Assembly: GCA_964035575.1 (NCBI GenBank)
Contig: OZ037841.1
Coordinates: forward strand, 1,798,001 to 1,862,000
From: Rhynchopus sp. YZ270_cl-10
Lineage: Eukaryota; Euglenozoa; Diplonemea; Diplonemida; Diplonemidae
Direction of reading: 5' to 3'
Length of the DNA stretch: 64,000 nt
The notes under the pieces were generated by a model. That model was given only the letters and a program-made list of their open reading frames with translations. It ran no database searches and was not told the DNA's origin. Both the position numbers and the translations under genes were made by a program. Of this stretch, positions 26,080 through 47,713 are shown piece by piece. Within the stretch, counting starts at the first letter, position 1, and each line of letters opens with the position of its first letter.

Positions 26080-29034
26080 ATGATGACAACGAGAACCTCG
26101 TCATGGTGCACACAACAGCTGTCCCTTCTCCTCCTCCTTGCCTGCACGACAGTCCCACCTGCAGCAGGGGTGCCACAGCAGCCGATCAGAGTCATGGCAG
26201 TGCTCTCCACCCAGACACCCGTCACCCCACACGGTGCATATGGTCCAGTGTCAGCCTGCATGCAGATCACACCTAGCTGCAAGGGCGGGCTTCCTCCACT
26301 TCACGCATGGCTGCGGCAGCAGCGGTCTGACGCACGAGGCAGCGTCTTCCTCACTGGACCTGACACCAAAAGTCGTTTCATTCTTTCGTACCCTTCGCAG
26401 TATCTTTTCAACCTTGAAGCCTGGCGACGACTTGGTGTTGACTTTGGAGTGCTCCAAGACGAAACGTTTGTGACGATGGACGGTCGTGCTGATGTTGCGA
26501 TACAGTTCCTGGAGGCGGCTCACGTTCCCATGATTGCGTCAAGCATGATGTCTGACAACACATTTACTATGTTCTACGGTCTCACCGAGCGGATTCACTA
26601 CAAAACCATTGATGGTGTAACTATCGCGACGATTACACTCTGGTCTGATGTATGGCAGGGAGGCACATTTGGCTTCTTCCGTCACGCAGTCATCCTTCCT
26701 GTTGTCTGCAAACGTGCCCGTGCACGTGGTGCACAACGTATCGTTGTCTTCATTTCTGGTTCCACCTCCGGTGCTGACGACCCCACCATCTACTCACAGT
26801 ACGACATTGATGTTGCGGTATTTACCTTGTTCGCTGGAGAGACCATCAAAACCAATGGGACGACCATATACAGGACAGGGCCTGATTATGGACTGCTGTC
26901 GGTGAGCCTTGTGCAGGATGGTGCAGTGTGGACGGATTCGTTTGAGGCAATCAGTCTCAACACACCACCTGCAGGATACGACACGGCTGTGTTTGCTGCG
27001 GACCAGGCCTGGGCACAGCTCGCGTTGGACCAGGCGAATGCGAACAACGTTGCTCTCACTGTGTCCACTGCAGCGCTTGACCCGTCCACTGGCCCAGACG
27101 GTGCTTATCTCTGTGCCCTGTACGAATGCCACATGGGACGTATGGGGTGTGATGCAATATATGAATGGGCCACATGGGCCGATGTGGTGGTAACTGTGGG
27201 TGGGTCCTTCAGAGGTCCTGGGTGGCCGGCCGGCCCAGTGACGAACGGCGACATCTATGCGGGGAACCCGTTCACAGATTTGATGTGCACACAGAACTAC
27301 ACAGGTCCAGGGTTGTTGCGTATTTTGGAGCAGGGTCTCAACTTCACAGCTTCTGACGGGACGAAGCCTGAAGGTGCAAGCCATTCGTACCTGCAGGTGG
27401 CGGGGTTGCGATTCAGGTACAACACACTCCTGCCGCGGCAGCAGCGTGTCACGGCGGTGGAGGTCTTTGACAAGGAGCTGGAGGAGTACGTTCCCTTGAG
27501 CAGACGCCGCACCTACTCGGTGGTCACCATCCAGCACCTCCTCCGTGGTGCTGACGGCTACGGAGACAGTCTTGGCGACCACCAACCAGGCTCACAGGTG
27601 TGCCACACGAGCACCACAATTGAGGTGTTCATTGCCTACCTGAAGCGCCAGAGCACCTACACACCACACATTGACGGGCTCTCTATTAACGACTTCAGCG
27701 GGACATGGATGAACCTCTTGAACAAGACACGTGAGGACTGCACAGTGGACGAACGCTTCTTGGCTGAGTGGAGCGACTGCGAGCCGTGTGAGCCAGGCTT
27801 CTGGCATCCCAACGTTGAGAGTGAGTTCTGTGTGGAGAAGCTTGCGACTGTGAAGGAGTCAGGAGACGGTGCGCCTATTGGTTTGATTCTTGGTGTCGTG
27901 TTTGGTGTGCTTGTGCTGCTTGCGATTCCTGTTGCGTGGAAGATGACAGAGAAGCAGCGCCGCATCAACGCACTCTTCAACAACAACAAGATTGCTGAGG
28001 AATGCGCCGTTGCGGTTGTGGAGCTGCGTCTCTCGGACCTGGATTACTTACTGGAGCTGGACAACCCGAACAAAATCCAAGCAGCCTTCATCTCCATTGT
28101 GAAGCAGCTGAAGGTGTACATGGCGTTCATGCCAAAGACTCTCCTTGCTGACCGCCAAGACGCGAATGATTCCACCAAGAACGACTCAGCGGCAGCATCT
28201 GACAGTTCGTCTAACTATAGCAAGTCGTCTGGTCAGTCACGCCAGAAAGATCAGGTCAGGCAAGCAACAAACTTCACAAAGCGCAAAAGCATTTCGATGT
28301 TGTGCCTGAACAGCAGAAACCACACTGCACTCTGCGATAAGTCGGACAGTGCAGGTGTGGTGCACACAGCACTGATTGAGAACTTCACCTTCACTGTTGC
28401 GACACACAAGGGTGTGTCCGAGCCTATGTGTGGCGACCGCCTTGTGGCATCGTGGAACACTGCCATCGACCGTGCGGGGCACTCCGCGTTGTCGTGTGCC
28501 GCAGCACATGCATTGGTTGAAAAGCTCACAGACCCGAACACAATGTCATTGCCCGACGGGTCAGTGATCACACCGAACATTGGAATTGCTTCAGGAAAGG
28601 GACTCTTTGGTTTGTTTGGCGGCACGGCAACAAAGAAGTACGACGTTATCGGGAAGGTGCTGCCGTCTGCAACGATTCTGATGCTTCTGAACAAAGAGCA
28701 CGAGACGCACATCCTCGTCACTGCGAAGGTTGCAGAGGCTGTGGGCTCTCTTTACTTTTTGCGCATTGTGGACTACGTGCACTACGCGAAGCTGGATCGG
28801 GCGAGCTTTATCTTTGAGCTGTGTGAGCGCAAGGAACAGGATGAAGGTGACGAGTGGATGTACACATTGGACTCACACGACAGACGTGACCCTTACCTTG
28901 TATGCAACGATACATGGAGGCTGCTGGTCAAGGAGGGCAGACTCCCGAAGCAGGAAGCAGGGATGAGTGAAAAGCTGCTCTCGATAGTGAACCCGAACTA
29001 CGTAGCACCGTGCGCTTCGCTGAATCTCTTGTAA
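26080..29034 (+). CDS. Receptor copy 1: 5'-nucleotidase-like ectodomain, TM, pseudo-cyclase domain
   Basis: 984 residues from the paired Met at 26080, shared by all copies. A signal peptide (1-31) ends near PPAAG. Residues about 34-560 align with UshA-type 5'-nucleotidases: metallophosphatase-like part, then the C-terminal domain with GGSFRG, NGDIYAGNPF, LQVAGLRFRY and LLRGADGYGD. The metal motifs are changed: DxHG is gone, GNHE reads LQDE, and GHSH is absent. A CEPC-containing juxtamembrane loop precedes one helix (about 601-620). Inside come a helical segment, a Ser-rich linker (about 690-725) and a class III cyclase-like domain. There the first metal Asp is Asn744, the second (Asp786 in CGDRL) is kept, and the GDxVN motif reads Gly858-Lys-Val-Leu-Pro862. 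Probably a plasma-membrane receptor with two non-catalytic enzyme folds. Residual or altered catalysis cannot be excluded. Confidence 0.8.
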   Translation: MMTTRTSSWCTQQLSLLLLLACTTVPPAAGVPQQPIRVMAVLSTQTPVTPHGAYGPVSACMQITPSCKGGLPPLHAWLRQQRSDARGSVFLTGPDTKSRFILSYPSQYLFNLEAWRRLGVDFGVLQDETFVTMDGRADVAIQFLEAAHVPMIASSMMSDNTFTMFYGLTERIHYKTIDGVTIATITLWSDVWQGGTFGFFRHAVILPVVCKRARARGAQRIVVFISGSTSGADDPTIYSQYDIDVAVFTLFAGETIKTNGTTIYRTGPDYGLLSVSLVQDGAVWTDSFEAISLNTPPAGYDTAVFAADQAWAQLALDQANANNVALTVSTAALDPSTGPDGAYLCALYECHMGRMGCDAIYEWATWADVVVTVGGSFRGPGWPAGPVTNGDIYAGNPFTDLMCTQNYTGPGLLRILEQGLNFTASDGTKPEGASHSYLQVAGLRFRYNTLLPRQQRVTAVEVFDKELEEYVPLSRRRTYSVVTIQHLLRGADGYGDSLGDHQPGSQVCHTSTTIEVFIAYLKRQSTYTPHIDGLSINDFSGTWMNLLNKTREDCTVDERFLAEWSDCEPCEPGFWHPNVESEFCVEKLATVKESGDGAPIGLILGVVFGVLVLLAIPVAWKMTEKQRRINALFNNNKIAEECAVAVVELRLSDLDYLLELDNPNKIQAAFISIVKQLKVYMAFMPKTLLADRQDANDSTKNDSAAASDSSSNYSKSSGQSRQKDQVRQATNFTKRKSISMLCLNSRNHTALCDKSDSAGVVHTALIENFTFTVATHKGVSEPMCGDRLVASWNTAIDRAGHSALSCAAAHALVEKLTDPNTMSLPDGSVITPNIGIASGKGLFGLFGGTATKKYDVIGKVLPSATILMLLNKEHETHILVTAKVAEAVGSLYFLRIVDYVHYAKLDRASFIFELCERKEQDEGDEWMYTLDSHDRRDPYLVCNDTWRLLVKEGRLPKQEAGMSEKLLSIVNPNYVAPCASLNLL

Positions 29035-31512
29035 CAACGTTACTACTCGATACCAGATCACACCAGCGAACACCGGCTACAATAGCCTCTTCTTTTATTG
29101 TTTGCGTGAGGCCGAGGTCCGCCTTGTCACTTTTTTTACGTGGTGAAGAGTACCACCGGCATCACCTCGTCTATGTGTGCACGAGGCTGCCACTCTACAG
29201 TGTGCTGTATGTGTATACGTTGTTCAGTGTGTCTTAAATAGCGATCAGCGCACCTGCCATCCCGGGCGTGTTGTGTATACGAAAGGGTTTTTGATTTCAA
29301 GTAGCCTTTGTTTTTCTTTTCTTAACGTACCCTGCGTAGCCTGCGCTATTCTGTGTCGCGTAGGTTATCCCCATCCCCAGTAATTAGGTGAGGTCTGAGG
29401 ATAGTTAGCAGATGCTGCACCCCGTTCGCTACGGTATGGTGGGTCAGCTGCATCAATAGCTATTCCTCTTTTTCTTCTTCTTCAGTTATGGCAGGGTTTC
29501 CACAATCGTGAAGATGTTCATCAAAAAACGAACGGAAAAAAAGGGGGGTTTACACCACAGCAAAAAGTTGTATTTTACACTGTGGTTACAAAGCTTTTTT
29601 GAAAAAATAGGATATATAGTGGAGGACACTCTAGGTGGCTACACTAACACAACCAAGTATTCAAAATAGGAAAACTCCCGAAAATAGGTTCGTCACCTTT
29701 GGGAAACCCTGTTCATGGTGACTAAGTAAGTTGTCGTGCTTAGATGCATACCATCTTTTCTTGTTCTCATTCTTCACAAAGTAAGAGTGTGTCAATTTTG
29801 CTTTCTTTCTAAAAGGGATTCTTTATTTTGCTTTACCATTTCAGCTTAGCTTCATCTTACCAACTTTTCTCTCCACAACTGGAGGGCTATCTTCCCTTGC
29901 CGCGTGCTCGAGGCAAATCACTGTGTTTAACAGTTACCTACAACACAAGCAAAGTGACGACATCCCGAACATGCCGTCTCGGCGCTGCAGAGGGGGCTTC
30001 AGCTGGTGTTCACGCACAAATAGTGGGGCATGTGTGCACGTGTTCAGAACTACTTTCTTTTCAAGGTTCTATTCATTGATGTGCCCAATGAAGAATGAAG
30101 AGTTGGTAAGTTGAACCTTGAATGCTGTCATGAACCCATTTCACCCTCCCCTCCCCCTCGAGGCTCTCTCCTCCACATGAACAATGTGGCGTTCGGTGCT
30201 CTCCTCACATACTTAGCAATCGGGTGTGCTTTGCAACACTGTTGAGGATGTGCATGTCAAAAGCCTTGTTTTTGCTGCTATTTTCTTTTTTCCTTTTGCG
30301 CCTTTTTGTCACGGACGTCTCATTGATGGGACATCCTTTTAAGAAGGCACCTTTTTTTACTCATTCGTGTTTGATGTTTTTGTTCTTTATGCATGTGTAC
30401 ATTGTAGTGTTTGCAAGTTTGAGAAAATATATCCGTTTCGCTTGATCAGATCTCGACCGTTTGTTGCATTGCACGCTTCCACTTTTTTTTTTTTTTTTGA
30501 AAAAATTGATTGTTTCCAGCACACGCGGACTGTGTCAGTGTGTGATGGTATATGATTATTGCCTGAAGTACAGAAAAATGGGAGTGTCGGTGGCGGAGCA
30601 CAAAAGAGGTAAAATGAAAAACATATCGGGTGGGGTCTCTGATCTAATCTGTGCGACGAATATATTTCCCCTATCACGCCATGTTTGGCCAGGGCCTCTC
30701 CAGCGCGTCAGTTGCAAAATTTTTGATAACTTGTGATCCCCGCCAACCCACACTCCCTATTTGTCCAAAAATTAGTTCACCAAAGGTTCCTGGCGAAGCC
30801 ACGGTACGCAACATTTCAAAAATTGCGCTTAAAAATTGCACATTAGTCAAACTATGTTATGGGAAAGGTGGGATACTTGCGCCGCAGGCGCACAGTTCGT
30901 TACTTTTTTCCTTTTGCCACCTTCTTTTTTCTCACTTCTTGTTGGGTTCCACGAGCTCCGTCCGTCAAATGGTGGGGTCACAACGCGTCGCTTTTATTCT
31001 CAACGATTTTTTTTCAAACCCAATTTTTTTGGACCAAATTAAAGAGGTTTCCGGAGCGTATGGTGCAATACAAATATCACAGAATATACATTACACACTA
31101 TACGCACAAACAAAACGTCAGGAAACGACTCACACTGCCATTTTATTCACTGCTTGTGTATCGCGTCTTTTTAATTTTTATGCATGACTAAGCACATGCA
31201 GCTTAGGTACATCTGACCAACGTTTATCTTTATTTTTGCGAGAAAAAAAAATACATCATCATTTTGTTTATTTCCAGTGGACAACCAAACGGTGTTAAGA
31301 GCAGGGCTTGCTTCTGCAGGAACTTCAATCGCGAAGTTTTCAGTTTTGGCAGTAACAAAAAATGCTCAACTCAAAAGCGACACTTGTTTGGGATATCCAA
31401 ATATGCAGTTGAGGAGCAGCACCAACACAGCTTCCTCGCTTCTTAGTGTTGCTGGCAGCTCCAGGAGGAAAGCCAGCATTTTAAAGTAGTTTTTTTTATC
31501 AGACACCTTCAT
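29035..31512. other. Spacer between receptor copies 1 and 2, left part
   Basis: No supported gene. Contents: hairpin motif copies at 29719-29750, 29842-29865 (half) and 31185-31225; repeat family Y at 30160-30420; the palindromic core GCGCCGCAGGCGC near 30880; a copy of the 17884-17950 phrase at 31055-31115. A 60-70-codon ORF pair at 31264-31489 has balanced composition but no identity. Confidence 0.45.
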
Positions 31513-31914
31513 CAGGGGCTTATATATTTTGTAAAGGTTTTGGGGGAAATTTGGGGTGGTCCGAAGAATTGACAGCACGGTGACCACAATCGGTTTTTCC
31601 CGTAAGGGACCCCTTACAACCTCAGGGAGGGTTGCGCCGCAGGCGCATGGTACGCTACTTTTTTTCTCTCGCCATGCTGCATGCTTCCTTTTGCTTCGGC
31701 GTTTGACCAATTGAGTCGCGTGCTGGCTGTGACGGGGTCACGTCTTCATGAAGTCATTTCTGGTCACTCTCAGAGGACTCTCGAGGCTCGTGTGAGGTAC
31801 TAAAAAACCCCTATTTCCCCCCAAGAATTATCATTTTTTTTGGACGAAGAACTGTTAATGCCTGGTGAAAACCTGGTCAGGTTGACCAGGACGTACCTTA
31901 TATATAAGCCCCTG
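31513..31914. mobile_element. Probable hAT-like MITE with CAGGGG ends
   Basis: 402 bp between CAGGGGCTTATATAT (31513-31527) and ATATATAAGCCCCTG (31900-31914). Flanking octamers are ACCTTCAT and ATATTCAT, six of eight identical, consistent with an aged 8-bp duplication. The inside shares GCGCCGCAGGCGC plus GGTACG with the element at 17234-17781. A minus ORF (31366-31710) overlaps the left end and has no recognised product. Confidence 0.55.
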
Positions 31915-33271
31915 ATATTCATATTTCAAGCCTCTTACACTCTCAGTGCTTTCTGTTCTCCTGAATCGAAAGCACATGAATTAAAGTTCTATGTATCTTC
32001 ATGAGTGCCTGTTGCATGTAGCGATCAAATGCATGCAACGTTATCCTCGGAACATACTTTCACGCATACCGTTGCTGGTGTTTGTGCCTTGTGTGGGCGA
32101 ACATCTGCTCTGGTTCATATCTTTTTTCTCTTTTTTTATATATCTCTTTTCATGCATTGGACACCCAGAAAAACCGTCTGTAAGTATCCCCGCCTTTGGG
32201 TTGCATAGAGTAGAGTGCAGAACCCGCCTTTTGTGTTGCGTCTGGTACCACAGAACTGGTAGATATTCTTCTCTCAACAAAGCATTTTTTTTTTTGAAAT
32301 TTCATCGTCTGTGTGGTTCAGCATTGAACTGCCGCGAAACAAACGTATCTTTCCCGAAATAAATGTTAGAGAGATGAGTCCGTGTCTTTTTTTAAATTAT
32401 GCTCTGGTCTTTTTGTTATTTTTGTCTTGGTTTTTTTTTGCGCGGCTGGCAATTATCGTCTCAGCAAAGTTCCTGTCTCGAGATAATTAGTGTTTCAATA
32501 AATTGGTCATCGATTATTGCTGTCGCCTTTTGCGGTAAGGTCCCAGCGCTCCACTGTATTCTTCATAGTGCTCCTTTGTTGGAGGTGACTAACTAATCAG
32601 CAGAGTCGTAGCATCGCCACAAGATTGTTTATTTCTCGTTCTTCTGTTTGTTTTCCTTTTTCTTGTGCATAAAGAACAGCACGTCCTCAGTGAAGGATGT
32701 GCTTTGCACTGTCGGGGAAATGCACATCAAAGCCTTAGTGTTCCTTTCTTTTTGTTCAAAGCGCCCTTCAAAAAAACGATTTATTTGCTCTTACGTGTGT
32801 GTTTTGTTGCCTTTTGAGATCTTGTTGTTTTCCCAAAAGACGCGATATTTTGTTTAGATGTGTGTGCACGAGATGCACATTACATTGCTCAGCACATTCA
32901 CGATTTCTTCAGAATTAATCGACCTCTTGGTAAATCCATTATAATTGTTCAGTGTCACACCCCAGGATCACGCACCCCAGTATACAACCCCTCACAGACG
33001 CTATACCTTCCACCTTTTCCTTTTCCTTTCCTTTTTTTTTTTTACACATTATACTTTCCCTGCATACATCAGCGCAACAGTTTTACATACTAAACTTTTA
33101 CACAATATATTGCAATACCGAATACCTATTTTTCATTTTCTTTCGTTGTCATCTAAGCAGTTCATTTTGTGACATCTTTTTACTGTCTGCATCTTTTACT
33201 TTCTTTAGCTCTACTAAGCTCAGCTCATCTTACCACATTTGCTTCTTTCTTTTGAACCCATCATAAACCAC
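31915..33271. other. Spacer between receptor copies 1 and 2, right part
   Basis: No supported gene. A further decayed family Y piece lies at 32690-32850. A half copy of the hairpin motif, CTACTAAGCTCAGCTCATCT, lies at 33211-33230, after TTTCTTTAG, and matches the region just before receptor copy 1 at 26023-26045. The last 40 bp before the ATG (TTTGCTTCTTTCTTTTGAAC and following) are conserved before three of the four copies. Confidence 0.45.
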
Positions 33272-35643
33272 ATGATGACAACGAGAACCTCGTCATGGTG
33301 CACACAACAGCTGTCCCTTCTCCTCCTCCTTGCCTGCACGACAGTCCCACCTGCAGCAGGGGTGCCACAGCAGCCGATCAGAGTCATGGCAGTGCTCTCC
33401 ACCCAGACACCCGTCACCCCACACGGTGCATGGGGTCCAGTGTCAGCCTGCATGCAGATCACACCTAGCTGCAAGGGCGGGTTTCCTCCACTTCACGCAT
33501 GGCTGCGGCAGCAGCGGTCTGACGCACGAGGCAGCGTCTTCCTCACTGGACCTGACACCAAAAGTCGTTTCATTCTGTCGTACCCTTCGCAGTATCTTTT
33601 CAACCTTGAAGCCTGGCGACGACTTAGTGTTGACTTTGGAGTGCTCCAAGACGAAACGTTTGTGACGATGGACGGTCGTGCTGATGTTGCGATACAGTTC
33701 CTGGAGGCGGCTCACGTTCCCATGATTGCGTCAAGCATGATGTCTGACAACACATTTCCTATGTTCTACGGTCTCACCGAGCGGATTCACTACAAAACCA
33801 TTGATGGTGTAACTATCGCGACGATTACACTCTGGTCTGATGTCTGGCAGGGAGGCTCGTTTGGCTTCTTCCGTCACGCAGTCATCCTTCCTGTTGTCTG
33901 CAAACGTGCCCGTGCACGTGGTGCACAACGTATCGTTGTCTTCATTTCTGGAACAGCCTACGGTGCTGACGACCCCACCATCTACTCACAGTACGACATT
34001 GATGTTGCGGTCTTCACTTTCGTCCCTGGAGACACCATCAAAACCAATGGGACGACCATATACAGGACAGGGCCTGATTATGGACTGCTGTCGGTGAGCC
34101 TTGTGCAGGATGGTGCAGTGTGGACGGATTCGTTTGAGGCAATCAGTCTCAACACACCACCTGCAGGATACGACACGGCTGTGTTTGCTGCGGACCAGGC
34201 CTGGGCACAGCTCGCGTTGGACCAGGCGAATGCGAACAACGTTGCTCTCACTGTGTCCACTGCAGCGCTTGACCCATCCTCTGGCCCGAATGGCGAACTT
34301 CTCTGTGCCGTGAACGAATGCCACATGGGACGTATGGGGTGTGATGCAATATATGAATGGGCCACATGGGCCGATGTGGTGGTGACTGTGGGTGGGTCCT
34401 TCAGAGGTCCTGGGTGGCCGGCCGGCCCAGTGACGAACGGCGACATCTATGCGGGGAACCCGTTCACAAATTTGATGTGCACACAGAACTACACAGGTCC
34501 AGGGTTGTTGCGTATTTTGGGCTGCTTGCGATTCCTGTTGCGTGGAAGATGACAGAGAAGCAGCGCCGCATCAACGCACTCTTCAACAACAACAAGATTG
34601 CTGAGGAATGTGCCGTTGCGGTTGTGGAGCTGCGTCTCTCGGACCTGGATTACTTACTGGAGCTGGACAACCCGAACAAAATCCAAGCAGCCTTCGTCTC
34701 CATTGTGAAGCAGCTGAAGGTGTACATGGCGTTCATGCCAAAGACTCTCCTTGCTGATCGTGTGGGGAGTGATGAAGAGAAGAATGAGGGATCTGATAGT
34801 TCATCCAAGTTCAGCAATAGCAGAAGCAAGCAGTCTTCTTTAAAGTCACGCCAGAAAGATCAGGTCAGGCAAGCAACAAACTTCACAAAACGCAAGCACA
34901 TTTCGATGTTGTGCCTGAACAGCAGAAACCACACTGCACTCTGCGATAAGTCGGACAGTGCAGGTGTGGTGCACACAGCACTGATTGAGAACTTCACCTT
35001 CACTGTTGCGACACACAAGGGTGTGTCCGAGCCTATGTGTGGCGACCGTCTTGTGGCATCGTGGAACACTATCGTCGACCGTGCGGGACACTGTGAGCGT
35101 GCGTGCGATGCAGCACATGCATTGCTTCAAAAGTTCGGGGACACCAAAACCTGTGATGAGCAGGCAGTGATTACACCGAACATTGGAATTGCTTCAGGAA
35201 AGGGACTCTTTGGTTTGTTTGGAGGCACGGCAACAAAGAAGTACGACGTTATCGGGAAGGTGCTGCCGTCTGCAACGATTCTGATGCTTCTGAACAAAGA
35301 GCACGAGACGCACATCCTCGTCACTGCGAAGGTTGCAGAGGCTGTGGGCTCTGCCTATTTTGTGAGCATTGTGGACTACGTGCACTACGCGAAGCTGGAT
35401 CGGGCGAGCTTTATCTTTGAGCTGTGTGAGCGCAAAGAAAATAAAGACGGAGACGAGTGGATGTACACATTGGACTCACACGCCAAGAACGACCCTTACC
35501 TTGTGTGCAACGATGCATGGAGGCAGGTGATCAAGGACGGCACTCTCCCTTCGGCTGAAGGGCTGAGTGAAAAACTACGTTCCATTGCTGCGGATGAGAA
35601 GCAGCAGTATATTGCGCCGTGTGCTTCACTGAATCTCTTGTAA
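33272..35643 (+). pseudogene. Receptor copy 2, internally deleted
   Basis: Starts at 33272 like the other copies. It is collinear with them until TATTTTGG at about 34520, where the sequence jumps to GCTGCTTGCGATTCC. Compared with copy 1 this removes 586 nt (equivalent to 27329-27914), that is, the end of the nucleotidase C-terminal domain, the CEPC loop and most of the TM helix. Because 586 is not a multiple of three, the upstream frame ends at 34552 after 426 residues. Downstream, the pseudo-cyclase frame stays open to 35643 with normal codon use and its own linker sequence. A secreted, truncated ectodomain could still be made; a separate cytosolic product would need an internal start. The event looks recent because the downstream frame has not decayed. 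Confidence 0.8.
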
Positions 35644-37396: not shown

Positions 37397-39998
37397 CACC
37401 GTGCGCTGGTCAGAGGTCTGACCAGGTAATACCTGGTCAGATTTATGACCAGGTACACCTGGTCAGATCTGACCAGGTACACCTGGTCATGACCAGGTAT
37501 ACCTGGTCATGACCAGGTGTACCTGGTCAGATGACCAGGTACCTGGTAGGTTCCCAGACCCACGCAGTACCACGTCGCAGTACTACGCAAAATTTACCAC
37601 CAGACCCTGTCTTCGTGCACCTGAAGTACAACGCCGCAGACAGGCCAAACATGCGTTGGACTCAGAGGAATGCCCGCTGTGCAGGTATCATGAGAACCAA
37701 CTCCCAGCAACAAGGGGCGCCTTTTGGCGGGCGTTGTTGAGGGTGTTTGGGGTGCAAAGTTTTCCACAATTTTGATGCGCGGGTACAGAAGTGTTGTCTT
37801 GTTCTTTCATCTCTAGGAATGTAAATGTCAATCGCGTTTAACTACCACGAGGGCTTGTTCAGTGAACCCACAAGGGGTCGAAGGGGGTTGGTTATCCCAT
37901 ATCTATCAAAGGTTGTGTCGACCAGGCGAAACCACTATGTTACGCTGTACGTTGTTAAATCCGAAGAAATAACACTTTAGCAGCCGCAGGAAGTTTGCTA
38001 AAAAGAGTGCCTCACGCTACACAAACCACCACCCGCGATTGACTTAGATGTTATAACAAAGAGAATTCAGAACAAAACAACACCCTGCCCCATACACACT
38101 AAATTGTCATGCTTCAAGAGCATGCCTGGGCCAAAATTACTGTTGACAAAAAAGGCAACAAGACCACCCACAAGGAGTGTGAAATGTGCACTGGTTTTCT
38201 GGGGGAACGCAATATTTTCTTGTGTCTAGTCCTCCGCAAGCAGAGGACAGACTTTCCGGAAGGTTTCCAAAGGTCGAATTTCTTGCACTAGCTATGCTCC
38301 CTGGGTTAAATGGCAATAGCAGTGACTGACAAAATATTCCCACCCCCCAGGTCTTCGTCCACAAACCCAGAATAGATTGATGTGGGTGAAGCCTTTCGGA
38401 TTTTTGAGTTGTTGATAGAATGTCGAAGAGCGGCGAAACTTCTCATCGCAATCACGGATGCAGTTCAGATTTCACGATCCTGTGATGAGTGTAAATGTGG
38501 GGTGTGATTAAGTTATGGTGTATAAACGCAGTACTGTAAAATCGTTTAATTTGTCACCTACAATTCTTCCGTCCCTAATACAGAAAGTATCACTCAAGGC
38601 TGTACTTTAAAAAGTAGACACAAAAAATCGCCCGACGTAATGTGAGGGGGTGACAAAATTCATTTATGACTGATATTTCAACTCGGTTAATTAGGGTGTG
38701 ACAAATTAAACGATTTTCCAGTATTAAAGATGAGGTTAATGAAGAAAGTGGTAATAACTATGCATTGCCGTGAAATAAGGTAGCCTTTTTTTCACGCCAC
38801 AGCGGATTTCCTGCTGCACTAATGGTTCCCAAGCGAAGCGAGGGGACCATGTATAAGTATTTACCGAGCGAAGCGAGGTGAATATTATGTGCAGCAGGTA
38901 ACGAGCACGCCTGCAGAAGTTTAAAAACGGCTGCCTTATGACAAGCAATATGTAAGTTTATTCCGATTACACAAAGTAGGGGTAGTCTGCAAGCACCAGC
39001 CAAAAAAGAGTGAGATCGGTGATCAGGGAAAACAAACACCACCACACAACAACTTGACAACCACTAAAGGAATGAATCTACACTAGTGCCTGACAGTTAA
39101 ACATATTTACGTACCTTGTCTTCATCGTAACCTGCGCCTTCGCTGCTGTCAAGGTGCCTTCTCTGGGTACAGTGCCCAGTGTCCAGTACAGAAAAAAAAA
39201 TTCGTCTAAAAAATCGAGTACGCAAAACCACATTTTAGACATTTTAGACCCCTACAGAGGCTCAAAAGTGCCAAATTTTGCTTTTATGGCCTCAAATCGT
39301 AAAAATTAGCTACTACAGTACACGGGGTATGACCGTATTTTGGCTGAAATTTTGACTTGAAAATTTTTTTCAACATTTGCCCAATCTGAGGTTTTCTTTG
39401 GATTTTTTGGGCCATTTTATGACCTACCACGGCCAGTTTTGGGCAAAAAAGTTATTTTTTCTTTGGTCAAAAATCGCCTTGTCTAACCACTGTTTCGTGT
39501 AGGATTGTTCAAATACGTGTATTTGGTGAAACCCCAGATGGTCAAAACACCCGAATTTTGCGTTTTTTTGCATTTTTCGGTGCCCCAAGACCCAACCCAG
39601 AGGCCAAATTTTTCCCGAAAAAAAAAATTTTTTTTTTTGAGATTTTTCGATTTTTTGCTAAGGTGATGCCCATACAAAATGTACAGGGTGCACACAAATA
39701 GCCGTGGAATAAATTCTAGATGCTCTAAACTGCTCGTAAGTGCCTTTATTTGCACTTTTAGCCCAGTTTTGAGGTCATATGGACCCACCAAGGGCATTTT
39801 TGTGTTGTCAAAAAAAAAAAAAAAACCTGGTCACAGTGGCCAAATACCTGGTCACTGACCAGGTATACCTGGTCAATACCTGGTCATTGACCAGGTATAC
39901 CTGGTCATGACCAGGTGTACCTGGTCAATCTGACCAGGTCAAAACCTGGTCATATTACCTGGTCAACTGACCAGGTATCCTCTGACCAGCGCACGGTG
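37397..39998. mobile_element. Middle DNA transposon, 2.6 kb, TA-flanked, with CCAGGT palindrome arrays
   Basis: Perfect 20-bp inverted ends, CACCGTGCGCTGGTCAGAGG (37397-37416) and its inverse (39979-39998), each flanked outside by TA. Just inside each end lie arrays of TGACCAGGT/ACCTGGTCA palindromes (37417-37550; 39828-39978). The inside has short Cys-containing frames (37509-37775 and 38109-38291, + strand) that might be remains of a transposase zinc-binding region, and a 39200-39800 section matching dispersed family B. TA duplication suggests the Tc1/mariner superfamily or a relative; no DDE/D domain is recognised. Confidence 0.75.
38534..38721. mobile_element. Innermost TA-flanked MITE (mariner-like)
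   Basis: 188 bp. Ends CTGTAAAATCGTTTAATTTG and CTGGAAAATCGTTTAATTTG (read inward from each side, continuing TCAC), flanked by TA at 38532-38533 and 38722-38723. One mismatch within the 24-bp ends. The interior includes TAATACAGAAAGTATCACTC, shared with the GC-rich repeat at 22720. It sits inside the 2.6-kb element, so it is the third level of nesting. Confidence 0.8.
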
Positions 39999-40510
39999 TA
40001 GGCAAGAACCTCCTTGCGAGTCTTCTCCCCTGAGAACTGCGTTTCCCCCAGAGCCCTAGCAAAGTCCAGTGCCCCTTGCACGGTTTTACTCACTTTTGCC
40101 ATTTTTGTATTTGTTTTCATCCTGTTGTCAAGTAAGTTGTGTGGGAAATTATGGGAAAATGTAGGTTTCCTATAGGAACCTATAGGAAACCAAGGGTACC
40201 AATTTTTACCGTTGGTTTATTTTGCTCTCGGGGGGTATCCATCATATTTCCAATTGGACTTTTTGCTCGTCGTTTTTTTTATTGAACCCAGAAACTTAAC
40301 TCTGAGTTCATTAAAAAAAAAATCGGGGAGAAAGTCCCAGTAGAACCCAGATGAAATAAAAATAAGGACCCCAGGTTACCTTTTGGGGGGGGGTGGTTTA
40401 TGGACTGACCCACATGTACTATTTACATTTAAATTATTTACGTGTATTATTTACATGCACGAATACTATTTACATAAAAATATGTAAACAATAGCTGTGA
40501 GGGGGGTTTA

Positions 40511-41040
40511 CATATTTATTTTACTCTCCCCGTTTTATAGTGTTGAAAGGTGCACACGCCAAGAGAAGAATGACACCACTTCCAGGATAACACCCTGCGT
40601 TTACACTGGGTATTCCAACCACAACCCCGCACCACCTGCGAGCCATCCTCGCATGCTGGCGGCGTACTTTGGCGTGCGCTTGAGGTGCTTCTCTCAACTC
40701 CATATGAATGAACGAACAATAAAAAGAATAAAGTGATCAAAGTGATCAGCACACACAAAAATATGCTTCTCCCCTCCCTCCTTCTTATACATATCTCGTT
40801 CTCTTCTCTCTGTCTCTAAAGAACGCCAGACGGAAAGGACCACGTGTCTGTACATCAGCGTGTTCACCAGAAAGCGCAAAGCACTTTACATATGGACGAA
40901 ATTCTAAATCAGTCTTCTGATTCAGACCAGTTTTATGCACTGAGCCTTTTGGGGGTTGTCTACACTTTCAAAAACAGGTTTTGTTTTATGTGAGCCAAGG
41001 TTTGCATTTGCTTCTTTCTTTTGAACCCATCATAAACCAA
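40511..41040. other. Spacer before receptor copy 3
   Basis: No supported gene. The last 70 nt (TTATGTGAGCCAAGG, then TTTGCATTTGCTTCTTTC) match the leader of copy 4 at 44672-44720. The frame is open upstream of the shared paired Met by 20 codons, but that extension differs between copies. Confidence 0.5.
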
Positions 41041-44007
41041 ATGATGAGAACCAGAACCTCGTCATGGTGCACACAACAGCTGCCCCTTCTCCTCCTCCTT
41101 GCCTGCACGACAGTCCCACCTGCAGCAGGGGTGCCACAGCAGCCGATCAGAGTCATGGCAGTTCTCTCCACTCACATACCCGTCACCCCACACGGTGCAT
41201 GGGGTCCAGTGTCAGCCTGCATGCAGATCACACCTAGCTGCAAGGGCGGGCTTCCTCCACTTCACGCATGGCTGCGGCAGCAGCGGTCTGACGCACGAGG
41301 CAGCGTCTTCCTCACTGGACCTGACACCAAAAGTCGTTTCATTCTGTCGTACCCTTCGCAGTATCTTTTCAACCTTGAAGCCTGGCGACGACTTAGTGTT
41401 GACTTTGGAGTGCTCCAAGACGAAACGTTTGTGACGATGGACGGTCGTGCTGATGTTGCGGTACAGTTCCTGGAGGCGGCTCACGTTCCCATGATTGCAT
41501 CTAGTATGCTGCCGGACAGCACATTTCCTATGTTCTACGGTCTCACCGAGCGGATTCACTACAAAACCATTGATGGTGTAACTATCGCGACGATTACACT
41601 CTGGTCTGATCTCTGGCTCGGAGGCTCATTTAGCTTCTTCCGTCACGCAAGTATCCTTCCTGTTGTCTGCAAACGTGCCCGTGCACGTGGTGCACAACGT
41701 ATTGTGATCTTCATTTCTGGAACACCCTCGCCCGGTGCTGACGACCCCACCATCTACTCACAGTACGACATTGATGTTGCGGTCTTCACTTTCGTCCCTG
41801 GAGACACCATCAAAACCAATGGGACGACCATATACAGGACAGGGCCTGATTATGGACTGCTGTCGGTGAGCCTTGTGCAGGACGGTGCAGTGTGGACGGA
41901 TTCGTTTGAGGCAATCAGTCTCAACACACCACCTGCAGGATACGACACGGCTGTGTTTGCTGCGGACCAGGCCTGGGCACAGCTCGCGTTGGACCAGGCG
42001 AATGCGAACAACGTTGCTCTCACTGTGTCCACTGCAGCGCTTGACCCATCCTCTGGCCCGAATGGCGAACTTCTCTGTGCCCTGTACGAATGCCACATGG
42101 GACGTATGGGGTGTGATGCAATATATGAATGGGCCACATGGGCCGATGTGGTGGTGACTGTGGGTGGGTCCTTCAGAGGTCCTGGGTGGCCGGCCGGCCC
42201 AGTGACGAACGGCGACATCTATGCGGGGAACCCGTTCACAAATTTGATGTGCACACAGAACTACACAGGTCCAGGGTTGTTGCGTATTTTGGAGCAGGGT
42301 TTGAACTTCACAGCTTCTGACGGGACGCATTCAGGTGCAAGCCATTCGTACCTGCAGGTGGCGGGGTTGCGATTCAGGTACAACACACTCCTGCCGCGGC
42401 AGCAGCGTGTCACGGCGGTGGAGGTCTTTGACAAGGAGCTGGAGGAGTACGTTCCCCTGAGCAGACGCCGCACCTACTCGGTGGTCACCATCCAGCACCT
42501 CCTCCGTGGTGCTGACGGCTACGGAGACAGTCTTGGCGACCACCAACCAGGCTCACAGGTGTGCCACACGAGCACCACAATTGAATTGTTCATTGCCTAC
42601 CTGAAGCGCCAGAGCACCTACACACCACACATTGACGGGCTCTCTATTAACGACTTCAGCGGGACATGGATGAACCTCTTGAACAAGACACGTGAGGACT
42701 GCACAGTGGACGAACGCTTCTTGGCTGAGTGGAGCGACTGCGAGCCTTGTGAGCCAGGCTTCTGGCATCCCAACGTTGAGAGTGAGTTCTGTGTGGAGAA
42801 GCTTGCGACTGTGAAGGAGTCAGGAGACGGTGCGCCTATTGGTTTGATTCTTGGTGTCGTGTTTGGTGTGCTTGTGCTGCTTGCGATTCCTGTTGCGTGG
42901 AAGATGACAGAGAAGCAGCGCCGCATCAACGCACTCTTCAACAACAACAAGATTGCTGAGGAATGCGCCGTTGCGGTTGTGGAGCTGCGTCTCTCGGACC
43001 TGGATTACTTACTGGAGCTGGACAACCCGAACAAAATCCAAGCAGCCTTCGTCTCCATTGTGAAGCAGCTGAAGGTGTACATGGCGTTCATGCCAAAGAC
43101 TCTCCTTGCTGACCGCCAAGACGCGAGTGAAGTGATCCAAAAAGAAGCATCAGGAGCAGCATCTGACACTTCGTCAAACATAAGCAAGTCGTCTGGTCAG
43201 TCTCGCCAGAAAGATCAGGTCAGGCAAGCAACAAACTTCACAAAGCGCAAAAGCATTTCGATGATGTGCCTGAACAGCAGAAACCACACTGCACTCTGCG
43301 ATAAGTCGGACAGTGCAGGTGTGGTGCACACAGCACTGATTGAGAACTTCACCTTCACCGTTGCGACACACAAGGGTGTGTCCGAGCCTATGTGTGGCGA
43401 CCGTCTTGTGGCATCGTGGAACACTGCCATCGACCGTGCGGGGCACTCCGCGTTGTCGTGTGCTGCAGCACACGAATTGATTGATAAGTTCACAGACCCA
43501 AAGAAGAGTGTGTTACCAGCATGGACAGCTATTACACCGAACATTGGAATTGCTTCAGGAAAGGTGCTCTTTGGTTTGTTTGGCGGCACGACAACAAAGA
43601 AGTACGACGTTATCGGGAAGGTGCTGCCGTCTGCAACGATTCTGATGCTTCTGAACAAAGAGCACGAGACGCACATCCTCGTCACTGCGAAGGTTGCGGA
43701 GGCTGTGAACTCTCTTTACTTTTTGCGCATTGTGGACCATGTGAAGTACAGGAAGCTGGAGCGGGCGAGCTTTATCTTTGAGTTGCGTGAGCGCAAGGAA
43801 AGCAAGAACGGTGACGAGTGGATGTACGCGATGGAGTCGCACGAGAAGGCTGATCCACACGCCTTCTGCAATGAGACGTGGTATGAGCTTGTCACGAATG
43901 CTAAGTACCCTACGCAGGCTGAAGGGTTGAGTGAAAAGCTGCTCTCGATAGTAAAGTCTCAGAATGACAACTACGTTGCGCCGTGTGCCTCGTTGGATCT
44001 CTTATGA
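41041..44007 (+). CDS. Receptor copy 3: 5'-nucleotidase-like ectodomain, TM, pseudo-cyclase domain
   Basis: 988 residues, full length, same architecture as copy 1: signal peptide, degenerate 5'-nucleotidase ectodomain, CEPC loop, one TM helix (nt 42839-42898) and a class III cyclase-like domain lacking the first metal Asp and the GDxVN motif (reads GKVLP). The N-terminal half shares variants with copy 2 (GAWGPV, RRLSVDFG, DPSSGPNGELLC, FVPGDTIK), while its C-terminal 190 residues or so are essentially those of copy 4 (DPKKSVLPAW through SIVKSQNDNY). The linker reads differently from copies 1 and 2. It ends at a TGA followed by ATAGAGTAAA, also shared with copy 4. Confidence 0.8.
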   Translation: MMRTRTSSWCTQQLPLLLLLACTTVPPAAGVPQQPIRVMAVLSTHIPVTPHGAWGPVSACMQITPSCKGGLPPLHAWLRQQRSDARGSVFLTGPDTKSRFILSYPSQYLFNLEAWRRLSVDFGVLQDETFVTMDGRADVAVQFLEAAHVPMIASSMLPDSTFPMFYGLTERIHYKTIDGVTIATITLWSDLWLGGSFSFFRHASILPVVCKRARARGAQRIVIFISGTPSPGADDPTIYSQYDIDVAVFTFVPGDTIKTNGTTIYRTGPDYGLLSVSLVQDGAVWTDSFEAISLNTPPAGYDTAVFAADQAWAQLALDQANANNVALTVSTAALDPSSGPNGELLCALYECHMGRMGCDAIYEWATWADVVVTVGGSFRGPGWPAGPVTNGDIYAGNPFTNLMCTQNYTGPGLLRILEQGLNFTASDGTHSGASHSYLQVAGLRFRYNTLLPRQQRVTAVEVFDKELEEYVPLSRRRTYSVVTIQHLLRGADGYGDSLGDHQPGSQVCHTSTTIELFIAYLKRQSTYTPHIDGLSINDFSGTWMNLLNKTREDCTVDERFLAEWSDCEPCEPGFWHPNVESEFCVEKLATVKESGDGAPIGLILGVVFGVLVLLAIPVAWKMTEKQRRINALFNNNKIAEECAVAVVELRLSDLDYLLELDNPNKIQAAFVSIVKQLKVYMAFMPKTLLADRQDASEVIQKEASGAASDTSSNISKSSGQSRQKDQVRQATNFTKRKSISMMCLNSRNHTALCDKSDSAGVVHTALIENFTFTVATHKGVSEPMCGDRLVASWNTAIDRAGHSALSCAAAHELIDKFTDPKKSVLPAWTAITPNIGIASGKVLFGLFGGTTTKKYDVIGKVLPSATILMLLNKEHETHILVTAKVAEAVNSLYFLRIVDHVKYRKLERASFIFELRERKESKNGDEWMYAMESHEKADPHAFCNETWYELVTNAKYPTQAEGLSEKLLSIVKSQNDNYVAPCASLDLL

Positions 44008-44743
44008 ATAGAGTAAATGTGACACCAGCCAGCAAACGTTTAGTAGTGCCCCGGGGATATGCTACGATCGTGCTAGGCTGATAAAAGTGAGGGGGTATTG
44101 TGATGCGGTACCAGCTTAACCTATCCGGGTTTCTTTTTACACCTTCTGTTGTTGACCGCAGGGTTTTTGTGCTTTTTTCCGGGGCTGGCTCGTACCCGGG
44201 TCAGTCGGTGCCTGCATCAACTACTTGTTTCTTTTTCGCTTTTGTTTCCACAAAAGACATCGTTGCAAAGCAAAACCTTTCCTCATATTCAGCAGCATTG
44301 ATTTTTTGTTTTACGTTGAGGTTCCCACTTTTCCTTTTGTTTGTTGTCTCAGCCATCTTGTATTTTTGAGAAGTCTGGACAAAGAAACAAAACGAAAAGT
44401 GGGAGTGCCCTTCATGACGACCCTGCATATTCAAAACCTTTACAACCAAAAGATCGCATTTTCTTCATCTTTTTCTCACAGTTCGGGTTTTCTCCTCTTG
44501 TGCAATACCGGACGCAGGACATCCTCCTCCTGCTTTCCTCCTTTGGCAACGTTTTAGCACTGTAGACGGAGTTTAGGTTCAGCTGTCCAGCTCTTGTCCC
44601 TCATCCCATACCCATCCCAGACAACTTTCATTCACTTTTAGGGGTTCTTACACTTACACGGGTTTCATATTATGTGAGCCAAGGTGTCTCGTTCCTGTCG
44701 CACTTTGCATTTGCTTCTTTCTTTTGAACCCATCATATACCAC
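44008..44743. repeat. Intergenic spacer duplicated with the receptor gene
   Basis: From about 44140 to 44610 this spacer matches 48145-48602 downstream of copy 4: the family X core (CCTGCATCAACTACTTG), TTTTGTTTCCACAAAAGACA, GGACGCAGGACATCCTCC, GTAGACGGAGTTTAGGTTCA and TTGTCCCTCATCCCAT. So the unit that duplicated was gene plus 3' spacer. The TTTAGGTTCA phrase is half of the dispersed hairpin motif. No gene. Confidence 0.75.
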
Positions 44744-47713
44744 ATGATGAGAACGAGAACCTCGTCATGGTGCACACAACAGCTGTCCCTTCTCCTCCTC
44801 CTTGCCTGCACGACAGTCCCACCTGCAGCAGGGGTGCCACAGCAGCCGATCAGAGTCATGGCAGTGCTCTCCACCCAGACACCCGTCACCCCACACGGTG
44901 CATATGGTCCAGTGTCAGCCTGCATGCAGATCACACCTAGCTGCAAGGGCGGGCTTCCTCCACTTCACGCATGGCTGCGGCAGCAGCGGTCTGACGCACG
45001 AGGCAGCGTCTTCCTCACTGGACCTGACACCAAAAGTCGTTTCATTCTTTCGTACCCTTCGCAGTATCTTTTCAACCTTGAAGCCTGGCGACGACTTGGT
45101 GTTGACTTTGGAGTGCTCCAAGACGAAACGTTTGTGACGATGGACGGTCGTGCTGATGTTGCGATACAGTTCCTGGAGGCGGCTCACGTTCCCATGATTG
45201 CGTCAAGCATGATGTCTGACAACACATTTACTATGTTCTACGGTCTCACCGAGCGGATTCACTACAAAACCATTGATGGTGTAACTATCGCGACGATTAC
45301 ACTCTGGTCTGATGTATGGCAGGGAGGCACATTTGGCTTCTTCCGTCACGCAGTCATCCTTCCTGTTGTCTGCAAACGTGCCCGTGCACGTGGTGCACAA
45401 CGTATCGTTGTCTTCATTTCTGGTTCCACCTCCGGTGCTGACGACCCCACCATCTACTCACAGTACGACATTGATGTTGCGGTATTTACCTTGTTCGCTG
45501 GAGAGACCATCAAAACCAATGGGACGACCATATACAGGACAGGGCCTGATTATGGACTGCTGTCGGTGAGCCTTGTGCAGGATGGTGCAGTGTGGACGGA
45601 TTCGTTTGAGGCAATCAGTCTCAACACACCACCTGCAGGATACGACACGGCTGTGTTTGCTGCGGACCAGGCCTGGGCACAGCTCGCGTTGGACCAGGCG
45701 AATGCGAACAACGTTGCTCTCACTGTGTCCACTGCAGCGCTTGACCCGTCCACTGGCCCAGACGGTGCTTATCTCTGTGCCCTGTACGAATGCCACATGG
45801 GACGTATGGGGTGTGATGCAATATATGAATGGGCCACATGGGCCGATGTGGTGGTAACTGTGGGTGGGTCCTTCAGAGGTCCTGGGTGGCCGGCCGGCCC
45901 AGTGACGAACGGCGACATCTATGCGGGGAACCCGTTCACAGATTTGATGTGCACACAGAACTACACAGGTCCAGGGTTGTTGCGTATTTTGGAGCAGGGT
46001 CTCAACTTCACAGCTTCTGACGGGACGAAGCCTGAAGGTGCAAGCCATTCGTACCTGCAGGTGGCGGGGTTGCGATTCAGGTACAACACACTCCTGCCGC
46101 GGCAGCAGCGTGTCACGGCGGTGGAGGTCTTTGACAAGGAGCTGGAGGAGTACGTTCCCTTGAGCAGACGCCGCACCTACTCGGTGGTCACCATCCAGCA
46201 CCTCCTCCGTGGTGCTGACGGCTACGGAGACAGTCTTGGCGACCACCAACCAGGCTCACAGGTGTGCCACACGAGCACCACAATTGAGGTGTTCATTGCC
46301 TACCTGAAGCGCCAGAGCACCTACACACCACACATTGACGGGCTCTCTATTAACGACTTCAGCGGGACATGGATGAACCTCTTGAACAAGACACGTGAGG
46401 ACTGCACAGTGGACGAACGCTTCTTGGCTGAGTGGAGCGACTGCGAGCCGTGTGAGCCAGGCTTCTGGCATCCCAACGTTGAGAGTGAGTTCTGTGTGGA
46501 GAAGCTTGCGACTGTGAAGGAGTCAGGAGACGGTGCGCCTATTGGTTTGATTCTTGGTGTCGTGTTTGGTGTGCTTGTGCTGCTTGCGATTCCTGTTGCG
46601 TGGAAGATGACAGAGAAGCAGCGCCGCATCAACGCACTCTTCAACAACAACAAGATTGCTGAGGAATGCGCCGTTGCGGTTGTGGAGCTGCGTCTCTCGG
46701 ACCTGGATTACTTACTGGAGCTGGACAACCCGAACAAAATCCAAGCAGCCTTCATCTCCATTGTGAAGCAGCTGAAGGTGTACATGGCGTTCATGCCAAA
46801 GACTCTCCTTGCTGACCGCCAAGGCGCGAGTGAAGTGATCCAAAAAGAAGCATCAGGAGCAGCATCTGACACTTCGTCGAACAGGAGCAGCAGATCATCT
46901 ATCTGTTCGCGTGACAAGGAGAACATTAGGCAGGCAACAAACTTCACACAACGCAAAAGCATTTCGATGATGTGCCTGAACAGCAGAAACCACACTGCAC
47001 TCTGCGATAAGTCGGACAGTGCAGGTGTGGTGCACACAGCACTGATTGAGAACTTCACCTTCACTGTTGCGACACACAAGGGTGTGTCCGAGCCTATGTG
47101 TGGCGACCGTCTTGTGGCATCGTGGAACACTATCGTCGACCGTGCGGGGCACTGTGAGCGTGCGTGCACTGCAGCACATGCATTGGTTGATAGGTTCACA
47201 GACCCAAAGAAGAGTGTGTTACCAGCATGGACAGCTATTACACCGAACATTGGAATTGCTTCAGGAAAGGTGCTCTTTGGTTTGTTTGGCGGCACGACAA
47301 CAAAAAAGTACGACGTTATCGGGAAGGTGCTGCCGTCTGCAACGATTCTGATGCTTCTGAACAAAGAGCACGAGACGCACATCCTCGTCACTGCGAAGGT
47401 TGCGGAGGCTGTGAACTCTCTTTACTTTTTGCGCATTGTGGACCATGTGAAGTACAGGAAGCTGGAGCGGGCGAGCTTTATCTTTGAGTTGCGTGAGCGC
47501 AAGGAAAGCAAGAACGGTGACGAGTGGATGTACGCGATGGAGTCGCACGAGAAGGCTGATCCACACGCCTTCTGCAATGAGACGTGGTATGAGCTTGTCA
47601 CGAATGCTAAGTACCCTACGCAGGCTGAAGGGTTGAGTGAAAAGCTGCTCTCGATAGTAAAGTCTCAGAATGACAACTACGTTGCGCCGTGTGCCTCGTT
47701 GGATCTCTTATGA
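44744..47713 (+). CDS. Receptor copy 4: 5'-nucleotidase-like ectodomain, TM, pseudo-cyclase domain
   Basis: 989 residues, full length. The ectodomain is almost identical to copy 1 (GAYGPV, RRLGVDFG, STGPDGAYLC, LFAGETIK, TKPEGASH). The region after the linker has a segment shared with copy 2 (TIVDRAGHCERAC). The C-terminal 170 residues or so follow copy 3 (KKSVLPAW, VLFGLFGGTTTKK, HVKYRKLERAS). The linker contains RSSRSSICSRDKEN, unique among the four. The same catalytic residues are missing as in copy 1. It therefore reads as a three-part mosaic made by gene conversion or unequal crossover. Its 3' end and spacer are those of copy 3. Confidence 0.8.
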   Translation: MMRTRTSSWCTQQLSLLLLLACTTVPPAAGVPQQPIRVMAVLSTQTPVTPHGAYGPVSACMQITPSCKGGLPPLHAWLRQQRSDARGSVFLTGPDTKSRFILSYPSQYLFNLEAWRRLGVDFGVLQDETFVTMDGRADVAIQFLEAAHVPMIASSMMSDNTFTMFYGLTERIHYKTIDGVTIATITLWSDVWQGGTFGFFRHAVILPVVCKRARARGAQRIVVFISGSTSGADDPTIYSQYDIDVAVFTLFAGETIKTNGTTIYRTGPDYGLLSVSLVQDGAVWTDSFEAISLNTPPAGYDTAVFAADQAWAQLALDQANANNVALTVSTAALDPSTGPDGAYLCALYECHMGRMGCDAIYEWATWADVVVTVGGSFRGPGWPAGPVTNGDIYAGNPFTDLMCTQNYTGPGLLRILEQGLNFTASDGTKPEGASHSYLQVAGLRFRYNTLLPRQQRVTAVEVFDKELEEYVPLSRRRTYSVVTIQHLLRGADGYGDSLGDHQPGSQVCHTSTTIEVFIAYLKRQSTYTPHIDGLSINDFSGTWMNLLNKTREDCTVDERFLAEWSDCEPCEPGFWHPNVESEFCVEKLATVKESGDGAPIGLILGVVFGVLVLLAIPVAWKMTEKQRRINALFNNNKIAEECAVAVVELRLSDLDYLLELDNPNKIQAAFISIVKQLKVYMAFMPKTLLADRQGASEVIQKEASGAASDTSSNRSSRSSICSRDKENIRQATNFTQRKSISMMCLNSRNHTALCDKSDSAGVVHTALIENFTFTVATHKGVSEPMCGDRLVASWNTIVDRAGHCERACTAAHALVDRFTDPKKSVLPAWTAITPNIGIASGKVLFGLFGGTTTKKYDVIGKVLPSATILMLLNKEHETHILVTAKVAEAVNSLYFLRIVDHVKYRKLERASFIFELRERKESKNGDEWMYAMESHEKADPHAFCNETWYELVTNAKYPTQAEGLSEKLLSIVKSQNDNYVAPCASLDLL

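Follow-up and report, generated by a model that had tools for sequence, protein, structure and literature searches.

What could a protein do that joins a 5'-nucleotidase fold without its metal site to a nucleotidyl cyclase fold without most of its catalytic residues? The question is raised by four tandem genes on the plus strand of a 64-kb stretch (64,000 nucleotides) of the diplonemid Rhynchopus sp. YZ270_cl-10, contig OZ037841.1 (C9:1798001-1862000; genome of 152.4 Mb, 126 contigs). We call this whole stretch the window. Diplonemids are abundant marine protists, sister to kinetoplastids. An earlier note, made from the sequence alone, described the genes as surface receptors that signal without, or with altered, catalysis. 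By profile comparison, the cytosolic tail of these receptors is a separate genome-wide pseudocyclase type, and its nearest profile is the second (C2) domain of receptor cyclases of the same genome. According to a comparison of gene pairs, the genes have swapped ectodomains and tails among themselves. The explanation that we prefer, with doubt slightly outweighing confidence, is that these proteins would be single-pass surface receptors of a nucleoside type that signal through the pseudocyclase.

Each intact copy encodes a signal peptide, a two-domain 5'-nucleotidase fold, one transmembrane (TM) helix and a class III cyclase fold. The four tandem copies with this domain order, the signal peptide and the single TM helix had all been proposed and were confirmed, with three copies open and one broken (Table 1). 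PF02872 was found by Pfam above the cut-off in the three intact copies (E-values 2.5e-21 to 2.9e-22). This profile covers the C-terminal domain; the structure check recovered a complete two-domain 5'-nucleotidase fold with a metallophosphatase N-domain, as expected from the UshA-type layout. The reported loss of the nucleotidase motifs (GNHE, GHSH) holds throughout the family alignment: the His columns of GNH, SH and GHxH contain no His in any of the 19 rows. The GD Asp is retained in 16 of them. The alignment of the DxH column is uncertain, with one His there (P0019). In 8 rows, none of them window copies, a His is found one position past that of GNH. Another nucleotidase gene of the genome, L057 (C30:1123000-1132000), is a 1,461-amino-acid frame with two tandem 5'-nucleotidase units, which by eye retain GD, GNHE and SH-type motifs, with GHxH reading GGSNS.

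The tail has a class III cyclase fold, and the cyclase profile PF00211 remains below its curated cut-off in Pfam (12.8 and 13.9 bits vs 21.9; copy 1 is not listed). As the earlier note had read, the first metal Asp is replaced by Asn (N746), and this holds in 20 of 20 aligned tail rows; the second is Asp (D788) in all of them. The Asn/Arg pair is also lost as claimed, the transition-state Asn being present in 3/34 rows and the Arg in 0/34; the Lys is found in 0/34. In a control set of catalytic (C1) domains the Lys is present in 21/21, and the Asn and Arg in all 19 readable domains (2/21 were not parsed). Of the residues counted in the 34 rows, free counts are available for Lys, the transition-state Asn and Arg alone; the Asn at the metal position, the GD and the base-selecting Asp were located by motifs naming them. 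The metal and base Asp of the control were located likewise, and the aligned count is that of 20 rows. The tail also has the conserved motifs N...GD[RK]...[FW]N and EWMY, and relatives from other data sets show the same residue pattern. Judged from their sequences, the nucleotidase half and the cyclase half both look dead, the former by the loss of its metal site and the latter by its uniform non-catalytic pattern.

The origin of the tail was sought among the receptor cyclases of the same genome. Those among loci L018-L038 have a C1 domain and then a degenerate C2 domain; among those read, 17 have a single C2 behind their C1, in many cases containing a [WF]N motif, and Pfam reports nothing for C2 in the receptor cyclases scanned. 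Profiles were made from 17 (C2), 21 (C1) and 7 (generic cyclase) sequences, the generic set being without L011, L015 and P0023-P0025, where the motif used to cut the domain was not found. According to hhalign, the tail matches the C2 profile with an E-value of 9.5e-9 over 147 columns, the C1 profile with 0.001 and generic cyclases with 3.6e-6 over 43 columns. After the addition of six extra loci these values became 1.3e-12 (138 columns), 2.2e-4 and 3.6e-7. Hidden Markov models (HMMs) give the same order: c2 matches 17/17 family domains (median 20.1 bits), generic 17/17 (14.3 bits) and c1 15/17 (1.1 bits), with no c1 match at 0.01 in the window copies. The generic-cyclase figure is the least certain because it comes from 7 sequences vs 17 and 21. 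We reject a decayed C1 as the tail, given the better match to C2 than to C1. Thus the non-catalytic cyclase fold of the earlier note stands, but its nearest type is C2, and it is not simply a decayed catalytic domain.

The juxtamembrane linker is common to the window receptors and to C1-C2 receptors with other ectodomains (lk HMM), namely a PnrA-type binding protein (L020), kelch (L036) and one with no Pfam match (P0026, from L021). A profile of five C1-C2 receptors (A4) has as its nearest entries in PDB Trypanosoma brucei GRESAG 4.1 (8.3e-30) and 4.3 (2.7e-29).

The ectodomain has a further property that the picture of a dead nucleotidase had overlooked. In CD73, according to an excerpt of the source, adenine stacks between F417 and F500, and R354, R395 and D506 hold the phosphate and ribose (PMC7508162). 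We counted the equivalents in 27 family rows, or 26 at the first positions, where L051 (a truncated gene) is unreadable: R395 is kept in 26/26, D506 in 27/27, F417 as F/Y in 26/26, F500 as F/Y in 23/27 and R354 in 19/26. N390, which we take to be another nucleoside-binding position of CD73, is kept in 22/26. The window copies read A, V, R, F, H and D at R354, N390, R395, F417, F500 and D506. They and the C90 type L052, whose three sister copies have a 100% identical ectodomain, are the exceptions at N390 and F500 (Val, His), and in both R354 is replaced by Ala. It thus seems that most family members kept the nucleoside pocket but lost the cutting site, and in most relatives the domain probably still holds nucleosides. 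The window subfamily seems to have altered the pocket; with its clamp positions changed, it probably recognises a ligand different from that of its relatives.

The architecture is not confined to the window. Genome profile searches scored the best 150 candidates per query, and the resulting counts are lower bounds. PF02872 has 36 matches in the genome. Local profiles place the ectodomain with a pseudocyclase tail on C9, C90, C8, C21, C44 and C96, and with both C1 and C2 in one case, on C62, where Pfam reports PF02872 (4.2e-33) and PF00211 (1.7e-29) in one frame. On C49 and C65 the ectodomain is followed by C1 with no C2 match (the C49 locus ends before the frame does), and on C83 it occurs with a C1 split between two frames. 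The cyclase domains on C62, C49 and C65 keep their motifs. At L045 (C65), L004 (C49) and L050 (C83) neither the shared linker nor a C2 match accompanies the C1. Outside this genome the same domain order, for which the earlier note had suggested a search, is present in three EukProt entries (P0013, P0017 and P0019, the first two under a single Trinity gene name) and in the ENA contigs P0020-P0022. A nucleotidase-type copy on C17 (1115697-1120336) is split between frames and has its own pseudocyclase; the C1-C2 cyclase match at L033 precedes it by approximately 2.4 kb.

The tail itself is far more abundant. A tail-only search gave E-values of 2.7e-8 or lower for the best 150 of 684 candidates, and a second seed gave the best 150 of 751. 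The union of the two puts the pseudocyclase at no fewer than 205 loci, spread over 54 contigs. By their tails at least 26 of these belong to the nucleotidase-type family, of which 25 adjoin a PF02872 match; the other 179 lie outside it and include large arrays on C11, C3 and C4. Among the PF00211 matches listed (best 150 of 493 candidates, all above the cut-off), none is within 3 kb of the 205 loci, and 2 of these loci are less than 5 kb from one. The C2 query gave the best 150 of 725 candidates with E-values up to 1.9e-4. Six of the 179 loci were read (L060-L065). Each of them has the tail (E-values of 9e-29 to 5e-38 with the fd HMM) with the N and GD positions kept, and no C1 domain was found in them. 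L060, L063 and L065 encode proteins of approximately 1,600 amino acids with PA domains above the cut-off ahead of the pseudocyclase and a laminin-G match that is above the cut-off in one and below it in two. The other three have no Pfam match above the cut-off (a weak HAMP in L062, a short frame).

How did one tail come to stand behind different sensors? Among 253 pairs of 23 genes, 23 are discordant, i.e., the ectodomain is more than 90% and the tail less than 75% identical, or the ectodomain is less than 75% and the tail more than 85% identical. In these 23 pairs the linker is 89-100% identical. With identical copies collapsed (L052-L055, L040-L042, L046-L047), a hand count gives 14/136 discordant pairs. 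For example, L048 and L049 are 93% identical in the ectodomain and 52% in the tail, and L040 and the truncated L051 are 54% and 92% identical, respectively. Ectodomain codons 35-587 of window copies 1 and 4 are the same at every nucleotide, but the tails differ. In the C8 array (L005, L006, L008, L039-L049) and in window copies 1 and 4, sensors and tails have been recombined across the conserved TM-linker stretch.

In a maximum-likelihood tree of 21 ectodomains (midpoint root), L002, which has a C1-C2 tail, groups with L005 and L044 with support 100/100 inside the pseudocyclase-tailed group. One sensor type has thus been coupled to both a live-looking and a dead output. The nested position of L002 speaks, under this root, against an origin of the branch by simple loss of C1 in place from a C1-C2 gene; therefore tail exchange fits better. 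Neutral decay is also rejected, on the basis of dN/dS (the ratio of nonsynonymous to synonymous substitution rates) of 0.22-0.63, obtained from 12/15 usable pairs for the ectodomain and 15/15 for the tail, the pairs not being independent. The earlier receptor picture was correct in pairing, by sequence, a non-catalytic nucleotidase fold with a non-catalytic cyclase fold, but it missed the C2-like profile of the tail, the module exchange and the related ectodomains on motif-keeping cyclases (C62, C49, C65) or in a split frame (C83).

According to the explanation that we prefer, the clamp domain would bind an extracellular nucleoside or nucleotide. In nucleotidases of the UshA/CD73 fold one domain moves against the other, and CD73 dimerises through its C-domain. 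Ligand binding would shift the ectodomain, and the TM helix and the conserved linker would relay the movement to the pseudocyclase, a dimerising output that would not itself make cyclic AMP (cAMP). In the simplest case the tail would pair with the matching C2 of full C1-C2 receptor cyclases and set the amount of active C1:C1 dimer as a decoy or modulator. A tail:C1 pair should form no working site because the tail is without the Arg, the Lys, one metal Asp and mostly the Asn, and therefore the simplest effect would be to hold back or reposition C1. Since sensor and tail are exchangeable modules, the gene arrays would yield new sensor-output combinations.

Several points weigh against this explanation. 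The pairing of the tail with C2 of active receptors is argued from homology, and the ligand and the interaction are predictions from sequence. Nucleoside binding by W1, W3, W4 (the intact window copies) and the C90 type is doubtful because their residues at R354, N390 and F500 are Ala, Val and His. A shifted, partial metal site may exist in the 8/19 rows with a His one column past the GNH His, and the score of generic cyclases may be lowered by the small profile. The main predicted structure is of middling confidence (mean predicted local distance difference test, pLDDT, 66.5; the linker is mostly below 50), and another, made for a C1-C2 receptor with 5 sequences as input (mean pLDDT 38.4), failed to show C1 and C2 together.

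The alternatives differ in which half of the protein they reinterpret. The tail is possibly a cAMP-independent scaffold or a nucleotide-binding adaptor that recruits proteins through N...GD[RK]...[FW]N and EWMY with no cyclase regulation, and we consider such a cyclase-independent role nearly as likely as a cyclase-modulating one. Its presence at no fewer than 205 loci, with several ectodomains among those read, would suit a general output, as would the distance of over 3 kb between these loci and the PF00211 matches listed and the six extra loci with the N and GD positions kept and no C1 found. But the closest domain is C2, fused directly behind C1, and the linker is common with the C1-C2 receptors, which together indicate a cyclase-linked role. 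The ectodomain, for its part, could be a binding, adhesion or dimerisation module in which the clamp residues persist structurally, with no nucleoside sensing. We regard this as rather unlikely, since R395, F417, F/Y500 and D506 are kept together in most members though the metal site is gone; the window and C90 copies speak for it: they have changed the R354, N390 and F500 equivalents, and still 3/4 window copies are intact and under purifying selection.

It is very improbable that the proteins are enzymes after all, with other residues completing the metal sites. One Asp per metal centre is kept (nucleotidase GD in 16/19 rows, cyclase GD in 20/20), and the shifted His of 8/19 rows would be compatible with that; however, the SH and GHxH His are lost in 19/19, the cyclase Lys and Arg in every row and the Asn in 31/34. 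We give equally little credence to a family of recent duplicates sliding toward pseudogenes. The broken copy among the four of the window and the frame-split C17 copy are what such decay would leave, but dN/dS is well below 1, long open frames are found at most of the 25 loci, and relatives from other data sets share the residue pattern.

A literature search of titles and abstract openings found no nucleotidase-cyclase receptor pairing, in agreement with the earlier note, which knew of none, and no enzyme-free tail or its genome-wide use with varied sensors. Some papers among those found, such as PMC6366073, name both adenylate cyclase and diplonemids. The word "cyclase" is absent from the main texts of PMC10161547, PMC7052976, PMC4728078 and PMC7859406. 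Such folds and such a receptor layout are known already; to judge from this search, the ectodomain, the enzyme-free tail and the genome-wide use with different sensors appear to be new. A wider claim, which we offer as a somewhat doubtful one when taken as a whole, is that diplonemids have a genome-scale, enzyme-free receptor class: hundreds of proteins with exchangeable sensors (the nucleotidase fold, PA plus laminin-G-like domains, others without a Pfam assignment) would end in one pseudocyclase that adjusts, or substitutes for, the output of receptor cyclases that are similarly numerous, and the window branch would be an extracellular nucleoside receptor made from a disabled CD73-like enzyme. 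Extracellular purine receptors on a nucleotidase fold and pseudocyclase-only outputs would be new sensing modes in diplonemids. In such disabled-enzyme receptors ligand binding itself apparently becomes the signal. Concrete predictions follow from the Asn/Asp pattern conserved in the tail, from the linker that the receptors have in common and from the exchange of modules, and a genetically manipulatable diplonemid is available, as described in an excerpt of PMC12621601.

Table 1. Coordinates of the receptor genes and their parts in the window
Feature	Positions	Strand	Remarks
Copy 1, intact pseudo-nucleotidase/pseudocyclase receptor gene, 984 aa	26080..29034	+	
Copy 1 signal peptide region, residues 1-32	26080..26175	+	hydrophobic segment 14-32 in copy 4; N-termini aligned, near identical
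Copy 1 metallophosphatase-like N-domain, about residues 33-325	26176..27054	+	of the metal ligands only the GD Asp (Asp95) is left
Copy 1 5'-nucleotidase C-domain (PF02872), residues 337-530	27088..27669	+	bears the clamp positions
Copy 1 single TM helix, residues 594-624	27859..27951	+	measured in copy 4; copy 1 residues the same by alignment
Copy 1 conserved juxtamembrane linker	27952..28143	+	lk HMM; also present in C1-C2 receptor cyclases
Copy 1 pseudocyclase domain, residues 719-932	28234..28875	+	
Copy 2, broken gene	33272..35643	+	reading frames 33272-34552 and 34357-35643
Copy 3, intact gene, 988 aa	41041..44007	+	
Copy 3 pseudocyclase domain, residues 720-934	43198..43842	+	
Copy 4, intact gene, 989 aa	44744..47713	+	
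Copy 4 pseudocyclase domain, residues 722-935	46907..47548	+	

According to a repeat analysis of the four units, their starts are spaced approximately 7.2, 7.8 and 3.7 kb apart. Copy 2 is broken by a 586-bp deletion relative to copy 3 and by a frame-shift near 34524. With the deletion the ectodomain has lost its end and the TM helix the greater part of its length; the frame stops at 34552, and the tail is in another frame. The receptor genes (26080-29034 and its relatives) are uninterrupted long frames; diplonemid genes are described as intron-packed in an excerpt of PMC12621601. Their neighbours in the window are a DnaJ protein (48628-49857), a subtilase (56622-59516) and a protein with ankyrin matches below the cut-off (7353-9116); Pfam gave no match for the long frames 9728-13759 and 51069-55049. 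Nothing was found when the 64-kb window was scanned for Rfam families and tRNAs, and NCBIfam gave just the nucleotidase and cyclase matches again, all below its cut-offs.

In addition, when up to 3 mismatches are allowed, the genome contains 726 matches to the pattern ACTACAGTTTCTGTACTTTATTGGT and 0 to its reversed control. At all listed places but one it reads GCTACAGTTTCTGTACTTCATTG followed by GT, and many of these places are in arrays; at three loci read (L066-L068) the leader is preceded by AACCAACGATTTCTAAA. The layout is that of spliced-leader RNA genes, and the sequence matches what we take to be the diplonemid leader. Together with the GRESAG match of profile A4, this marks the host as euglenozoan and almost certainly a diplonemid. 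Arrays of this type are found on contigs C1, C2, C3, C9, C11, C13 and C17. A lone spliced-leader-like stretch at L059 (C14:1213001-1213020) stands directly upstream of an ATG with no GT donor and looks like a retrocopied mRNA.

Among known systems, CD73, UshA and NadN share the full two-domain fold with the receptors described here, and most receptor family members have most of the clamp residues, but the receptors are without the metal site and are fused to a TM helix and a cytosolic tail. The transmembrane adenylyl cyclases of Trichomonas vaginalis, of which there are approximately 123 genes, resemble them in large gene number, gene replacement by recombination and pseudogenes; they differ in having a single active cyclase domain behind several TM helices, and the excerpted source does not mention an interchangeable ectodomain (PMC2914791). 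Receptor cyclases of trypanosomes dimerise, with control by the ectodomain proposed, and most of them carry two Venus-flytrap domains on the outside and a cyclase domain on the inside, as stated in an excerpt of PMC6027212. The GRESAG4/ESAG4 proteins are built along similar lines, a signal peptide and a large ectodomain being followed by one TM helix and a tail with a class III cyclase fold. The difference that the earlier note saw in the ectodomain is real: the receptors have a 5'-nucleotidase fold outside rather than Venus-flytrap domains, and they have no C1. The nearest relative of the tail is in the same genome, the C2 domain matched over 138 columns, which follows a C1, whereas in the window receptors no intracellular domain other than the tail was found, and the tail keeps the GD.

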